The notes below the pieces were generated by a model. The model made no database searches, was not told where the DNA came from, and saw nothing but the letters and a program-made list of their open reading frames with translations. A stretch of 64,000 nt of DNA from Phytoseiulus persimilis (lineage: Eukaryota; Arthropoda; Arachnida; Mesostigmata; Phytoseiidae). The translations under genes were made by a program, and so were the position numbers. Location: NCBI GenBank assembly GCA_037576195.1, contig CM075103.1, forward strand, positions 1,240,001-1,304,000, written 5' to 3'. Below, piece after piece: positions 16,801-64,000 of the stretch; the stretch's first letter is position 1; each line of letters opens with the position of its first letter.

Positions 16801-19522
16801 GAATGGCCGTCTAGATGACTCTTCGGGACCTTCTAGGATAGCAAGCTCCGAGAAGAGTTTTAGGAGCACCCGATCAAGAAGCTCAGTGCCATATTCGAGT
16901 AGGCGATGCGCGATCCACGAGAAGGGCTTCAGAAACATCCGAAGAAACGATTCCGGGAAACTGAAGCGCGAACCACAAAACGAGCTCCTGGCACACACGA
17001 TGGATCGGTTCAGTGTCGAATTCATGAAACTGGAGCAAAACCCACGGGAGAGCCTCCAAAAATCGCCGACAGACATTTTTCGCTATATTTTCGATTCGAC
17101 AGATATTCTACCGTTTCATTCGAAATTTTCTATCAGTACAGAGCAAGCTGCAATACAGGTTGTCATTCGCGATCGTGCACATGGAAGCATGTTCAAATCG
17201 ATAACAGGCTGTTTTTGCGACGGTTGGGTCATTACTCCAATGCGAGCGGGCTCAACATAACGGGACGCAATCCGGCCGCCCTCCTCGTCGGCTCGAGAAG
17301 ATACGACGTCGAGGGCAACAACGACGAAGACAACCGCTCCGAACAGGGCAAGGTCTTGAAGCGGATCGTCTCGATTGTTTTCTGTACTCCTCAAACTCCG
17401 CTTCTCATGGGAATCATGCATAGTATCATGCACGAATGAGGGCCATCATCTTGGCCCGAAAACTCTTGGAACCGACACGCTTCGCGGCCAAGAAAAGAAC
17501 AGACAGGACGTCTGGGGTCGGAAATGTTGTTCTGTGCCTCATTCCTCCTAAAGGCCATCTCAGTATCATATGCCCACGGACGTAAACAGAGGTCGTTACA
17601 AGTTAGGAGTCTGACCGACAGGAATCACGAGATATCTTCCGACGAGAGCGGCATGACCAGGACTGAATGAATCGAGGAAGCAGCTCAGTACTCTTTCGCG
17701 CCGTCGGACTGATCTCGCTCACCTCAACTTCGTGACATACTGCTTGAACTCTTCTCCGCGCAGAACAGCGTGGGTATCAGCGTAGGCTGCACTCTTCTGC
17801 CGCTTGTCTTCGAGATCAGAATGGACCTGAGCGAGTTGGGCTTGGAGCTGTTCCATCTGCTCCGCCGCTGCTTCTTTCTTCCGAGAAACGATTGCCGCCT
17901 GGGGAGACGCAGGTTCGTCGTTATTGGTTTCGACTCGACAGTCTCCTCGTCAGTTTGTTGAATTTCGCTCACCTGTTGACGGAAGAGTATCTGCTTCTCA
18001 TCAGGATCACTCCTGCGCATCTTCTTTTCGTACAGTCGACCAACTTCGCTGTTCATTTCGGTCAGTTGATTGTTGATCTGGGGGTGGTTTGTTTCATCAG
18101 AAAGGTATCCAGGGAGAACGCTCCCGAGTTCAGAATTATCTTTCTTTCGCAACCAGTCGAGGTCAGCACAACCTTTTCTATGATTTCCTGTGTCATAGCG
18201 GGCTCGGCCACTGCTCTCTGTAAATCTTTCAGCAGCAGACGACCTGACCTGACCTCCCTCGGCAACTTCTCGTGCACAAGATAACCGTTAGCTTTTACTT
18301 CTTCCGTGAGTTTCGCCAACAGACTTTCTGGGGTGGCTCCGACCGCAGTTTGTCTCTCTACTTTGACCTGTATTAGAATTCCAGAATCAGTTCCTGTAAC
18401 CATTTCGTTTGGAGAACATGCATGATAAATCACTTCGGTACCATCTGCTGCAAGCGATTGAGTTTTTGCTCGCTATGAGCCAGCGTGTCTCGCTGCATCA
18501 TACGGTCCTGGGCTAGCCCCTCAGCCCTATCCTGCTCGGCTCGGAGCTTCGCAGCAGCCTCCAGCATCGCATCTTTGTTGTATATATTCGAAACTCTTCG
18601 CTTCACACGATCGATCTTCCGACCCAACTGCTGTCTCTCCTCCTCCATGTGTTCCATATCCTTCTGAATTTCTTGCAAGCTCTGTCCGGACTGTAAGATT
18701 GATTTTCTTGTCAATCAATGCGGTAATATATCTCCTACGCGACTCGTGCAAAATTCGAACAAATCAGTAGGAGACAAATGGAATATTGAAGCCAGCTGAG
18801 CACGATATTTGGGGGTCCAATTTCACGCGTTCGGGCTTGTGTCGGGGTTACGTACCTTGCTCAAACTCTCGTACTCTTTATGGATTGATTTGAACTGATC
18901 GATGAGTTTGTCATATTCGTCCTGGATGTCGACCAAATCAGCGTCGCCCTCCAGATCGGGACTAATTTCGACTTTCATTATGTACCTGTGGAATCGTATA
19001 GCATTACCTCTGAAGGATCCGCCGCGGCTGGGATAGGGACCCTGCAGAAGTTTCGTACCTCGCGACGTATGCTCTTTTCTTATGATGTTCGAGGTTTGCG
19101 AGAATGAATGCCAGTATGTGGTACACGATTCCTTTGTCGCCGTGCACAAGTCCTTGACGAAATGCACTCAGCGAAATGTCCGACGGTGGTTTGTACTTCA
19201 TCACGCGGAGAAGGTTGAGGGCCTGGGTGTTGAATGTTTTCTTGAGTCAGGTGGTCTCTCCCAGTTTTTCTTCGCAAACCTATTCAGGGTAACGAGGCGA
19301 CGCGAAAGACTGCGTCCTGGAGACACCTACTTTGATCGAGAGTTGTTCGGCATCGTCGCTACGCAAGTCGGATTTTGCTTTGGGATCCACGTAAGCGAGA
19401 ACGTCAAACAGCACTTGGAGCAATTGGTCAGACCTTAAGGCATCGAAACTGATCAAATTGAATTTCTTCTCGAACGGGGGATCGTTCAGCTTGGAAATGA
19501 CGAATTTGACTTGCTCCGTCAT
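13878..19522 (-). CDS. intraflagellar transport protein 81 (IFT81)
   Basis: Core subunit of IFT complex B; with IFT74 it binds tubulin for transport along the ciliary axoneme. In arthropods this mostly means sensory-neuron cilia. Exons on the minus strand: 19522-19331, 19222-19059, 18985-18856, 18690-18442, 18367-18173, 18077-17973, 17898-17723, 15095-14950, 14868-14702, 14501-14368, 14296-14122, 14033-13878. Phases close to 662 residues, against 676 in human. The N terminus (MTEQVKFVISKLNDPPFEKK, then NLISFDALRSDQLLQVLFDV) matches the CH-like tubulin-binding domain. Later landmarks are KKRAYVAR, EPAMTQ, SRKKEAAAEQ, LRGEEFKQYVTKLR, GATLEEMSQMV, YNSCAMGLD and the final LKMWTDLAKLL. The rest is coiled coil. 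Intron 7 (15096-17722) is 2.6 kb while the others are 71-200 nt; it holds a MITE, tandem repeats and an antisense ORF. The intron 5 donor is a weak GTTGTG. Ortholog assignment is very sure. Confidence 0.95.
15719..16114 (+). CDS. unrecognised ORF nested antisense in IFT81 intron 7
   Basis: I do not recognise this protein. It is 131 residues from the ATG at 15719. The frame stays open upstream to an acceptor-like site (ATTTGCAG, ending 15610), so the ORF could be the last exon of a longer transcript. Composition is protein-like and acidic near the end (ALETYIEKLLNWDSGLYSG, then EE and stop), without signal peptide or clear domain. The TAA stop overlaps an AATAAA hexamer (16110-16115), which is early for a poly(A) signal. 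It lies wholly inside an intron of IFT81 on the opposite strand. An ORF of this length can arise by chance, so expression data would decide. Confidence 0.3.
   Translation: MNSCVSLPPEIRTNEKYETNKVSVRADGVTSVRGRPQTTVNARNWADQLFPFSVNRSFRDYLDDRKCDLQSVGEPDSSPCESPLVDGVIGDDAYSFFRIPELLDSSTACPALETYIEKLLNWDSGLYSGEE
16272..16780. repeat. degenerate tandem repeat, unit about 44-50 bp
   Basis: Around nine imperfect copies of a unit containing GGGGTCGATCTGACCATACTT followed by a GTCTGAGGAGGTGG-like link. CTGA/CTGACC cores lie near 16317, 16361, 16465, 16513, 16555, 16603, 16647, 16693 and 16737. The left edge (TAGGGCGGCTCA) matches the left edge of the block at 7190-7390. One unit is interrupted by the MITE at 16369-16463. 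The minus strand of the array stays open over several units (YGQIDPG-like peptide repeats), probably by chance. Confidence 0.7.
16369..16463. mobile_element. 95-bp hAT-type MITE with perfect TIRs and 8-bp TSD
   Basis: Terminal inverted repeats of 22 bp are perfect: 16369-16390 starts CAGAGTTGGGCAGATTCGAA and 16442-16463 is its exact reverse complement. The element is flanked by identical 8-bp direct repeats ATCTGATC (16361-16368 and 16464-16471). An 8-bp duplication together with a CAGAGTTGGG-type end is the known signature of hAT elements. The interior is only 51 bp, A/T-rich, with more GAATC motifs and no ORF, so it needs a transposase in trans. The perfect TIRs and target duplication suggest recent insertion. 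Confidence 0.9.
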
Positions 19523-26235: not shown

Positions 26236-27615
26236 ATGTTTCAGCTCTCAATCGCAGCGCTTCTTCTAGCCTCGGCTTCTGGTCTCGAAACTTCGTTCCA
26301 GTTCAAGCATCACGACAACCACGAGTTATTTGAAGAGCTACGTAGGGTGAATGGAGAGTGTCCTTCGATCACACGTCTCTACGAATTGAATCACAAGTCG
26401 GTGAAAGGTTGGTCGCTCAACGTTTTAGAGTTTTCCGGGAACCCAGGAGTTCATGAACCGCTTGAGCCTGAGTTCAAGTACGTGGGGAACATGCACGGGG
26501 ACGAAGTTCTTGGTCGTGAGCTCCTCCTGAAGCTGGCAGACGAACTCTGCAGACGTTTCAAAGCAGGCGACCCAGAAGTGCAACGACTCGTCAATACGAC
26601 GAGAATCCACATCCTGCCGGCGATGAATCCCGATGGCTGGGACATAGCGACGAGAGCTAGAGACCCTGAAAACAGGAGCTTCCCTTCACTGATTCGGTGG
26701 TGGACTCAACGAGACGAGCCAGCGGGTCGCGGCAACGCCAATAACGTCGATTTGAATCGTGATTTCCCAAACCTCAACCAGGAATTCCATCGTAACTTGA
26801 ACCGAGGCGGAGATGCGAGACTGCATCACCTGTTCGGGGGAAAAATCGATCGCCCATTGCAACCGGAGACTCGAGCCCTCATCGAGTGGATCCTGTCCGA
26901 ACCTTTCGTCTTGTCCGCCAACTTCCACGGAGGAGCGTTGGTTGCAAACTACCCCTTCGACGATACATCAGACGGTACCTCCAGAGGGTACAGAGCTTCA
27001 CCGGACGATGCCTTGTTCAGGGGCTTGGCTCGAGTTTACGCGGGAAATCATGCTGAGATGCGCTTTGGAAAAGCATGCAGGTTCGGAGACGACAACTTCC
27101 AGGAATCGGGAGGCATCACGAACGGCGCAGCGTGGTACTCGGTGTCCGGGGGAATGCAAGACTTCAACTACCTGGCCTCCAACGACTTGGAAATCACCGT
27201 GGAGCTGGGCTGCGTCAAATACCCACCAGCGAGTGATCTCCCGATGGAATGGAAGAGGAACGAACGTGCCCTCATAGAGTTCATGTGGAGAGCTCACCAA
27301 GGCATCAAAGGATTCGTCATTGACGCTTCAACGAAGAAACCGATACAAAACGCTGAAATCTCGGTTATAAGCCCTGGCGATGTAGGTGCCTCGAAACGTG
27401 CCAGATTCGCCGTCACAACCACCAAACTTGGCGAATTTTGGCGAATTCTGCTCCCTGGAAAGCACACTATTCGAGCGAACGCGGTCGGGTACCAGGCTGA
27501 GGAGATCGAAGTCACCATCCCGGAATTCGACAAAAACAGGGAAGCGACGCGGGTGACTTTCGAACTTAAACAGCAGGAAAGGTTTCACCTCGCGCCATCT
27601 GCGAGAGGAAGTTGA
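26236..27615 (+). CDS. carboxypeptidase E-like metallocarboxypeptidase (M14B)
   Basis: Zinc exopeptidase that removes C-terminal Lys/Arg from peptides; the E type does this in secretory granules during neuropeptide and hormone maturation. It is 459 residues in a single uninterrupted exon. Signal peptide about 1-16 (MFQLSIAALLLASASG). Zinc ligands are His87 and Glu90 (NMHGDEVLGRE) and His231 (SANFHGGALVANYP). Substrate-site residues lie in NVDLNRDFPNL (Asn174, Arg175) and Tyr312 (GGMQDFNYL). The catalytic Glu is 323 (EITVELGC). A transthyretin-like domain follows (about 353-446, starting GIKGFVIDA). Every catalytic residue is present, so it should be active. Closest family as I remember it is CPE, by FVLSANFHGGALVANYPFDD and NGAAWYSVSGGMQDFNYL. 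The tail after 447 is short (ERFHLAPSARGS) and lacks the amphipathic membrane helix of vertebrate CPE. The gene is intronless although its neighbours have 6-14 exons, which suggests a retrocopy origin. Confidence 0.92.
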   Translation: MFQLSIAALLLASASGLETSFQFKHHDNHELFEELRRVNGECPSITRLYELNHKSVKGWSLNVLEFSGNPGVHEPLEPEFKYVGNMHGDEVLGRELLLKLADELCRRFKAGDPEVQRLVNTTRIHILPAMNPDGWDIATRARDPENRSFPSLIRWWTQRDEPAGRGNANNVDLNRDFPNLNQEFHRNLNRGGDARLHHLFGGKIDRPLQPETRALIEWILSEPFVLSANFHGGALVANYPFDDTSDGTSRGYRASPDDALFRGLARVYAGNHAEMRFGKACRFGDDNFQESGGITNGAAWYSVSGGMQDFNYLASNDLEITVELGCVKYPPASDLPMEWKRNERALIEFMWRAHQGIKGFVIDASTKKPIQNAEISVISPGDVGASKRARFAVTTTKLGEFWRILLPGKHTIRANAVGYQAEEIEVTIPEFDKNREATRVTFELKQQERFHLAPSARGS

Positions 27616-60882: not shown

Positions 60883-63714
60883 CTACATGGCCGTTATGAC
60901 GGTGTCTTTGCTTCCTTTGTTTTCCTGTTTTCGCATCGCGCGAAGATCATCCAAGGATAATTTTTCGACCACCGTGGCGCCGACGGCATCTCCAAGGACA
61001 TTTATCGCTGTGCGGAAGCGGTCTCTGAAATGCAGGTTCGTTAGGGATCATGAAAACGTGGGAGCCTTCTGGGGAGGGGGGATGTCCGCCTGCTTCTCGT
61101 TCGAGCCACGTGCGACTGCCGAACGAGTTGCTTCCATTCATTCCGGGAAACTCCGATTCTTCCCAATCAACAGAATGAGCTCATGTTCGCCGAGGCGAGA
61201 ACCGCTGTCTTCATCCATGCCAGAGAGAAAGAGAAATAGATGAGCACAAGGTTGAACAAAAAAATTCGGAACTCGTTCCGAGCTAGGTTCGAACTCACAG
61301 GAACCAATCGACAACTATGATAAGCGTAATATCATCCGCTGGCAAGCCGACTGCGTTGAGGACCATGACCATAGTAACCAGTCCGGCTTGAGGAATACCC
61401 GCTGCTCCAATACTAGCGGCAGTAGCTGTAATGCTGTTGAGGAAAAAAGAGAACTTTCAGCGGAAGCGGCCTTGGATCACTCGAAGTTCTATTTCGGGGT
61501 ACATTTTCATAGGCCGTGGCGCACGGTCTTGCTCATGAAATTGTTGAGAAATCACTGCTATCATAACGACGCATCATTCGGATGCTCGGAACACGGATGG
61601 GAAATCACCTATCCGATCGGAGCCGAGTCCAGTTTTCGGAGTGCGATGGTTCGAAACAGCAAAGCAAGCTGAACTTCTGTGCGACAGCAGCAGGCTCCCT
61701 CAGAATGCTCGACATCTAGTTGATATTCACCGTGAATTTATCCACCGCTGCTGAATTATCTCAGGTAGGAGACGACCAGCTGGCACCGTGTGTCGACAAC
61801 GACAGGCCTGCTGTATGACGCCGGCCCCTCAACCTGGTGTCTGAACTCCGTCCTCCGTGGCGGAGGAGGCACAGGCACGCACGCTCGCTTGCATTCCACA
61901 TGGAAAATTCGTTCCCATGGACAGAGTTCGGGATGCGGGCCGCGAAGCTGCGATCCGATCACTGAGGCAGTTCCGAGCTCTGATCACGTCGGAGTGATGA
62001 AAGAAACTATTCAACGGTTCTCTCCAATTTATTGAGGTCAGAATCGAGCGAGACAAGCCAATGAGTATGCTGAACAGGAACGAGATGCTGAATGATTCGG
62101 AATCGGTGAACACGCAACGGTGTCAGTCGAAGCTTTGATCGTAGAGAAACGGGTATTCAGATCGACGACTCGAGAACACGTCTCTACCGTCCAACACGGA
62201 ATGCAGAACAACGCTCACAAGATCGACAGCGACGTTCGCGAGCTGCAGGACACTACCGATGACATTCCCGACGCCACCTCGGAAGCCGAAAAAGCCTTCG
62301 TCGTTGACATCGCTCACCGTGCCGACGACATCCTGGATGCCTCCTGTGAGTGCATCAACAACGCCACCGAGTCCCCTGTAACGAACTCTCGGTCCGTAGC
62401 GCCTCCTCTGGAAAGCCTTCTCGGGCGTTGGAAGCGAACCCTCTTCGATTAGAGTCGGGGATAGCTCGGAGCCGCCTCTGGCTAGCGGGGAGCCGGAGAT
62501 GAATGATCCCTGAGCGAGCAACAGACACCAAAACATGAACTGCCGGGCGGGATTCCGCCGAGAGGGCATGACGGGTAACATCTGTTTCAGGTTCTGTACA
62601 GTGTAAGCAGCTCCGACACGAGAAGCTCCTTCACTGGGGCAAGCGATGTAAGGTCACCCGTTCCGATAAAAAGTAAGGAGATCGACCGACCAGCCGCACT
62701 CGCTCGCACAAGCCGACGGTGATGGCTCCTCAGATGACTAGTCGCGTTTTCTCAAAACCCTGAGCGAAGTTCTCAACTGAATTGCAGTCCCGGCGAGCTC
62801 AGAATCGGAGCGTTGCTAGGCTGACTCGTCGTGTTTTTTTGGAGTCGATGTCAAAGCTTGATGAAAACGGCGAGAGCGAGAATGAATTATCCCAAAGAAG
62901 TGGAGCGAGCCCACTAGAGGAAATATTTGACCACGATATGAAATTATGCTCTAGCAGGACCGAGCAACAACGGAATTCAGAATTTCCAGGTCAAGGGGAG
63001 CTCTCATCGCCCGCTGTGACCTGCTTTCCCGCGTTGGACCAGCGGTACGAGAAGTCAGTTTGTGCGGCGATAAGTCTTTTCACATCCTTTTCTCAGGGCG
63101 GCTCGCCCTCATTGTCACCCGCCCGATGTCCATTATGGGAATTGACTGGGATGAGTTCGTTTGCGGCGAGGAGTGACTGGAACTCACTCTGTTTGGCTCT
63201 CTTAGGTGCCTCCAGCTACAATTCCGAAAGTTTCATCTACACTCGAGCGTCGTCCCCGATGCTTTCTCGTAAGAGAATACCCTTTCCTCGGGATACGAAC
63301 GATTCGAGTGGTATCACTGGTGGACAGTTTGCCTCGACTCCTCACCGAGGCGGAGAAGAATCCTCAAATGAGGAGAGTTTGAAACGTTTCGAGGGACGCC
63401 CCGATCCACCCGCTGGTGGTGGTGGTGGAGGAGCGAACCTGATACTGCCCTTGAAGTCTGATCTATCCCCCCTTCTCTCAAAGATTATCGATTTCTATGG
63501 AAACGAGCACGCGGCTTACCTGATGGCAATAACCTTGCCCACGTCAAGAGGCACGCGGCGTACTTGCGCGATGAAGATAGCGGCCACAGCTTCGTAGAGG
63601 GCGGTGCCATCCATGTTGATTGTGGCTCCGATTGGAATACAGAAGCGGACTACTTTCGGATCGATCTTGACTTTATCCTCCAGCGCTGCAATTGTTACCG
63701 GCAGGGTGGCAGAA
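60883..63714 (-). CDS. excitatory amino-acid transporter (SLC1/EAAT), 3' part
   Basis: Na-coupled glutamate/aspartate uptake carrier of the plasma membrane, used for transmitter clearance. Three minus-strand exons are seen: 63714-63520, 61433-61299 and 61024-60883, all in phase; upstream exons lie beyond the window. The first carries the start of the conserved core: [28 protein letters not shown] and VGKVIAI. The second holds [20 protein letters not shown] and [20 protein letters not shown] (HP2 region). The third begins [16 protein letters not shown]; its Arg in DRFRT is the residue that favours acidic substrates over neutral ones in this family. The tail is short and ends KDTVITAM. All core motifs are intact, so it should be functional. 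The 2.1 kb intron 61434-63519 contains a same-strand gene for a predicted secreted protein and a long antisense ORF. Confidence 0.93.
62029..62034 (-). terminator. poly(A) signal for the nested secreted-protein gene
   Basis: AATAAA on the minus strand, 88 nt after the stop of the ORF at 62123-62569 and inside the transporter intron. If used in the transporter pre-mRNA it would truncate it. Confidence 0.5.
62123..62569 (-). CDS. predicted secreted Gly/Val-rich protein nested in EAAT intron
   Basis: A single-exon ORF of 148 residues from the ATG at 62569. The N terminus has a basic start and a hydrophobic core ([10 protein letters not shown], then [16 protein letters not shown]), a likely signal peptide cleaved near residue 25. 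A Pro/Glu/Ser propeptide-like segment follows and ends in a tribasic site ([12 protein letters not shown]). The rest is rich in Gly and Val with amphipathic repeats ([40 protein letters not shown]) and ends [10 protein letters not shown]. There is no Cys after the signal. It lies on the same strand as the transporter, wholly within its intron, and has its own AATAAA 88 nt downstream. No family recognised. The layout (signal, basic cleavage site, hydrophobic Gly-rich mature part) recalls secreted structural or antimicrobial proteins, but that is only an analogy. Length alone is not significant; the combination of features is. Confidence 0.5.
   Translation of the reverse strand: MPSRRNPARQFMFWCLLLAQGSFISGSPLARGGSELSPTLIEEGSLPTPEKAFQRRRYGPRVRYRGLGGVVDALTGGIQDVVGTVSDVNDEGFFGFRGGVGNVIGSVLQLANVAVDLVSVVLHSVLDGRDVFSSRRSEYPFLYDQSFD
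62848..63597 (+). CDS. long ORF antisense to EAAT intron and exon, unrecognised
   Basis: The + frame is open from 62782 to 63597 (271 codons; 249 residues from the ATG at 62848: [20 protein letters not shown]). By my estimate an ORF this long is unlikely by chance in 64 kb. It is Ser/Glu/Pro-rich with a hexaglycine run ([12 protein letters not shown]) and no signal peptide or domain I recognise. Its last 26 codons run antisense through the transporter coding exon (63520-63714), so that part of the frame is probably a by-product. It could be a nested antisense gene that splices before the overlap, or a fortuitous frame. Confidence 0.25.
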
Positions 63715-64000
63715 CTGCAATGAGAATTGTGGAGGTTATGACTCGTAAAATTGGATCCGCTACCATTACTGCAGAGCAGACAGGAATGAGTCTTTCGAAG
63801 GGACACCCCCTCCCCCCAAGAAACACTTACGGGTCCCGGAGGACCTTTCTTCCATGCTTATCCACTAATTTCTCATCTGAATATCGGATGCCTATTGTCA
63901 TTGAGAGTGCCCAGTCTATGAAAAAAAAGAACAATGCGATGTCGTGAATTCACTTTCTATTGACAACTCGCGTGCACGAACTCAGGGTTGATGAATCCAC
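63715..64000. other. EAAT intron sequence at window edge
   Basis: Upstream of the transporter exon on the minus strand. A short stretch bounded by a strong acceptor (CTTTTTTTTCATAG) and donor (GTAAGT) at about 63832-63917 looks like an exon, but its translation ([20 protein letters not shown]) does not match the transporter segment expected just before SSATLPVT. It could be a cryptic or alternative exon. Confidence 0.3.

Follow-up and report, generated by a model that had tools for sequence, protein, structure and literature searches.

A minus-strand reading frame within a transporter intron

The window analysed here (the whole stretch of 64,000 nucleotides, C3:1240001-1304000 of a 181 Mb assembly) carries at its right end part of an EAAT-type transporter gene. 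This gene was recognised from five colinear matches to the Pfam SDF family (PF00375), all on the minus strand and running from C3:1326097 down to C3:1301244, a distance of about 25 kb. Two of the matches, at 63522-63719 and 61244-61447 (window coordinates, as used below), flank an intron whose boundaries were read by eye from the sequence, with the donor CAG/GTAAGC and the acceptor TTTTTTCCTCAACAG/C. The match at 61244-61447 includes two stop codons, because it overruns the ends of the exon. Inspection of the intron revealed an open reading frame (ORF) of 152 codons from its first ATG (62581-62123), which lies in its entirety within this one intron and on the same strand as the host exons. The initial annotation had proposed a gene in this position, on the host's strand and inside a transporter intron of 2.1 kb; the placement was borne out, and the intron (63519-61434) measures 2,086 bases. 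The features of the locus are as follows.

63520..63719, minus strand: host exon upstream of the intron, with SDF positions 254-319 at 63522-63719; 63719 is the end of the match and not a fixed 5' end of the exon
61434..63519, minus strand: host intron, GT-AG, phase 2, 2,086 bases
62634..62653, minus strand: possible 3' splice site, CCTTACATCGCTTGCCCCAG/T, with pyrimidines at 14 of 18 positions, through which the phase-2 host exon would read on in the frame of the nested ORF
62123..62581, minus strand: nested ORF, 152 aa, putatively a single coding exon, with a TGA stop at 62125-62123
62028..62033, minus strand: AATAAA, the sole one on the minus strand of the intron
61300..61433, minus strand: host exon on the 3' side of the intron, covering part of SDF positions 316-384, 3' end approximate

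A second in-frame ATG is present at 62569, which is the boundary given in the initial annotation and from which the product would be 148 aa long, and its initiation context is the better of the two, with G at position -3 where the first ATG has C. The AATAAA begins 90 bases after the end of the stop codon. The poly(A) signal that had been attributed to the nested gene does exist in the intron, at 62033-62028, although the position given for it (62029) was off by one base. The host intron has no ATTAAA, and no AATAAA on its plus strand. Among the 62 other window ORFs of at least 100 aa only two have an AATAAA within 150 nt downstream, which makes this feature weakly more than chance. A loose string search for promoter elements near the nested ORF gave nothing convincing.

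The protein was then compared with several collections. A profile search of Pfam and NCBIfam returned 0 families at E values up to 10, and a sequence search of the PDB returned no related solved structure, so that the protein, as initially annotated, belongs to no recognised family, and it had no relative in these collections. No relatives were obtained from the viral and prokaryotic contigs (viral_contigs and genome_contigs) with this single-protein query, which detects close relatives only, and a viral or prokaryotic origin of the gene was rejected, neither contig collection having yielded a close relative. In searches of the organism's own genome, among the best candidates scored, the protein found only itself and the intron DNA gave one match, also itself; a transposon or multi-copy family was rejected, since no further copy of the ORF was found in the genome. 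The protein search also gave three matches of low significance, all on C1 (E 0.011-0.084). These were rejected as paralogs and attributed to chance: all three belong to a single repeat and are interrupted by a TGA in the frame that matched, and tblastn of the nested ORF against the three loci, run with neither composition correction nor masking, did not reproduce the alignment and gave only an 11-residue one elsewhere. The repeat itself (L018-L020, C1:54.59-54.67 Mb) is at least 3.2 kb long, and its three copies are 97-99% identical and lie less than 150 kb from the end of C1. The genome, with four large contigs (C1-C4) and about 51% GC, had 0 matches to six consecutive TTAGG repeats, and a search for the tick histamine-binding family, whose control matched nowhere either, gave none. 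The searches for relatives covered the organism's own genome, family profiles, solved structures and viral and prokaryotic contigs, so that the lack of relatives says little about the age of the gene.

Coding statistics of the nested frame

The length of the ORF was rejected as evidence of coding, since 17 ATG-initiated ORFs in the window reach at least 152 aa; in simulated non-coding DNA, 0.25 to 0.55 ORFs of at least this length were expected per 2.08 kb, counting both strands. Coding character was assessed with a three-periodic third-order model trained on exon stretches that encode kinases and trypsins in this genome. The training set consisted of the best 30 of 147 kinase matches and the best 30 of 139 trypsin matches, minus three with an internal stop (L037, L070 and L079), giving 57 exon stretches and 12,516 codons in total. 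The non-coding model was derived from the window after masking of the carboxypeptidase, of the EAAT exons and of positions 62000-62700, the remaining window exons being left unmasked.

With these models the nested ORF scored 0.099 bits/codon, a value that no simulated ORF of 152 aa or longer reached (0/366 at the composition of the window and 0/798 at GC 0.555; 0/1,164 together). It ranked first by coding score of the 28 window ORFs of at least 130 aa, the carboxypeptidase being closest at 0.091, and these two were the exceptions among the 17 window ATG ORFs of at least 152 aa, as the remaining 15 scored below 0. In codon usage it was first in synonymous bias and second in total codon score among 63 window ORFs of at least 100 aa. 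When ORFs down to 80 aa were admitted (105 in the window) it came third, the higher scorers being a plus-strand ORF at 62201-62452 (83 aa) and a minus-strand ORF at 19280-19522 (80 aa).

Some of the other ORFs encountered in this survey deserve description in their own right. The carboxypeptidase (26236-27615) is an intronless M14 ORF of 459 aa with a signal-like start, a Zn-carboxypeptidase domain and a regulatory domain. The minus-strand ORFs at 19280-19522 and 18062-18403 are coding-like, with scores of 0.117 and 0.069, and are perhaps exons of some gene. A plus-strand ATG ORF at 62848-63597 (249 aa), which spans the other half of the intron and runs into the host exon, scored -0.184 and represents a long ORF arising by chance.

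In a scan of the intron with windows of 120 bases, the frame of the nested ORF was positive for windows beginning between 62617 and 62257; its remaining windows were negative, stop codons depressing those that lie outside the ORF. The other two minus-strand frames were negative in every intron window tested. Compared with real exons (the training stretches scored leave-one-out, for which the 10% quantile was 0.090 and the median 0.221), the nested ORF scores towards the lower end. Its signal was also uneven, with +8.2 bits in 62374-62303 and +8.5 bits in 62302-62231 (about +17 together), near zero in the N-terminal half and -5 bits in 62230-62159; single blocks of 72 bases are noisy, however, because the 72 bases beyond the stop, where no signal is expected, gave +3.6 bits in frame. 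The score depended on the training set, being -0.007 when only trypsin stretches were used and 0.119 when only kinase stretches were used, and 3 of 42 flank ORFs at other loci, which may include real exons, scored as high as the nested ORF. Overall, the nested ORF looks coding: its protein-coding character is supported statistically, by a signal that is uneven and model-dependent.

Features of the predicted protein

Three features were recognised in the predicted protein.

62507..62569, minus strand: signal-peptide-like N-terminus with a basic n-region, an FMFWCLLLA core and a potential cleavage point following AQG (residue 25)
62399..62407, minus strand: RRR, residues 59-61, a putative dibasic-type processing site
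62192..62374, minus strand: Gly/Val-rich part, predicted to form two amphipathic helices (at residues 70-96 and at residues 101-130); the coding signal comes mostly from its first 144 bases

Both the signal-peptide-like start and the Gly/Val-rich C-terminal half that had been ascribed to the protein were thus present. The start was judged by a home-made hydropathy rule using the Kyte-Doolittle scale rather than by SignalP. By this rule 10 of the 63 window ORFs of at least 100 aa, including the nested ORF and the carboxypeptidase, had a mean of at least 2.0 near the N-terminus, and the nested ORF was sixth of the 63, with five ORFs more hydrophobic; taken alone, its signal-like start is weak evidence. 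The initial annotation had also suggested that the protein could be effector-like, for which the evidence consists of the signal-like start and the orphan status.

Furin cleaves at the motif R-X-K/R-R. The tribasic sequence that had been proposed for processing is indeed found at residues 59-61, but it is not a canonical furin site, because P4 is Gln, and it would qualify as a site of the dibasic type only. A further dibasic site is found at residues 139-140. The portion following RRR is 91 aa long and contains no cysteine, and its predicted pI of 4.65 is unlike that of typical antimicrobial peptides, which are cationic.

A structure model made from the single sequence placed helices at residues 11-28, 53-58, 70-96 and 101-130, with low confidence (mean pLDDT 53.8, pTM 0.27; pLDDT 56-78 when residues 71-130 are taken in blocks of ten). 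For five stretches the hydrophobic moment of a helix (100 degrees) was calculated and compared with shuffled sequences; it was reached by 0.2% of shuffles for residues 70-94 and also for residues 75-92, by 0.5% for residues 104-121, by 4% for residues 102-133 and by 34% for residues 116-133. Counting of 18-residue windows that were hydrophobic, amphipathic and free of proline gave 26 for the nested ORF, six for the next ORF and 0 for 53 of the 63 ORFs, with thresholds that were chosen after the sequence had been seen. By this count the amphipathic-helix content of the nested ORF exceeds chance.

The predicted helix pair of the product would most plausibly bind lipid or membrane surfaces. With secreted amphipathic-helix proteins that are membrane-active or bind lipid the product shares two predicted hydrophobic amphipathic helices following a putative pro-region, although there is no sequence match between them. 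It also resembles lineage-specific secreted orphan proteins, in that it is short, has a signal-like start and had neither a family nor a further genomic copy in the searches, but differs from them in having no cysteines after the signal region.

Alternative readings and same-strand nesting

It is unlikely that the nested ORF is simply an open frame that arose by chance where the intron DNA is richer in GC, without any gene there. Frames of this length are certainly frequent in the window (17, of which 15 had negative scores), many ORFs begin with a signal-like stretch (10 of 63), no relative was found in the collections searched, and trypsin-only training took the coding score to -0.007. A chance frame would nevertheless have had to outscore every one of the 1,164 simulated ORFs of this length or longer, to rank first or second among the longer ORFs of the window and to contain 26 amphipathic windows, compared with at most six in the other ORFs.

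Another reading makes the ORF part of an alternative last exon of the transporter: the host exon would be spliced to 62633, and with the AATAAA in the intron as its end the transcript would encode a truncated transporter with a new tail. The acceptor at 62633 is a fair one that fits both the phase-2 host exon and the frame of the nested ORF, the frame is open from 62653, and 62653-62582 scored +2.7 bits. However, the correct phase has a one in three chance of occurring, the product would be without the last part of SDF (positions after about 319 of 387), and the signal-peptide-like start and the RRR site would be left purposeless; moreover, fly isoforms that end at intronic poly(A) signals are described in PMC3890989 as rarely expressed. 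We consider this reading very improbable. That the plus strand codes instead, the gene being the ORF at 62201-62452 (83 aa) or its extension, is barely credible: although under the same model this ORF, at 0.126, outscored the rest of the 105 window ORFs of at least 80 aa, the minus frame over the identical block reached 0.217. Among the 57 training stretches, 98% had a sense frame that scored above any antisense frame, so that the plus frame has the appearance of a shadow. In its 110-aa GTG-start form the plus-strand ORF had a sole Pfam match far below the cut-off (E 0.076), and, as noted above, AATAAA is absent from that strand of the intron.

The locus probably contains a small, independent protein-coding gene, an orphan with a secreted helical product, nested in the EAAT intron on the host's strand. 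Such a gene would be transcribed from its own promoter just upstream, and its transcript would end at its own AATAAA, while in host transcription the nested stretch would be removed along with the intron by splicing. From the Drosophila experiments described below, the host would be expected to ignore the nested poly(A) signal, because its 5' splice site already lies upstream. The product would enter the secretory pathway and lose its signal peptide, with a possible cut at the RRR site, and the mature remainder would be a cysteine-free, Gly/Val-rich pair of amphipathic helices.

The initial annotation regarded same-strand nesting as unusual, which does not agree with the Drosophila figures given in PMC3890989, where 727 of 1,651 nested genes have the direction of the host, so that nesting of this sort is common in flies. 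For human, the 227 nested pairs comprise 75 in parallel and 152 in antiparallel orientation (PMC2330155, Table 2), and the same source describes same-strand overlaps as under-represented relative to a random placement model; in a tick, a helicase gene lies within papilin on the same strand (PMC3160391). The related concern, that an inner poly(A) signal threatens the host transcript, has some foundation. In both Drosophila pairs tested, ytr-eIF6 and xl6-nop5, the host transcript was made without use of the nested poly(A) signal, which was used again in a reporter from which the donor site had been removed (PMC3890989), whereas at mammalian H13/Mcts2 interference is reported, the nested gene triggering early termination of the host (PMC13309782). 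These cases indicate that the arrangement is of a known kind and that interference is possible but not a rule. The two Drosophila pairs resemble the present locus in having an intronic gene that reads the same way as the host and carries a poly(A) signal of its own before the host's 3' exons; they differ in being expressed genes, whereas the inner gene described here is a candidate and, in the collections searched, an orphan.

A bolder proposal, which we think quite unlikely, is that the gene arose de novo from the transporter intron and encodes a secreted, two-helix membrane-active protein that this lineage now employs in interactions with prey, host or microbes. The same-strand arrangement is in itself ordinary. 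If real, the gene would add another orphan secreted protein hidden in an intron and missed by gene finders that disallow nested genes, and its value would lie, once the orthologous intron can be compared across related species, in being a candidate for de novo gene birth.
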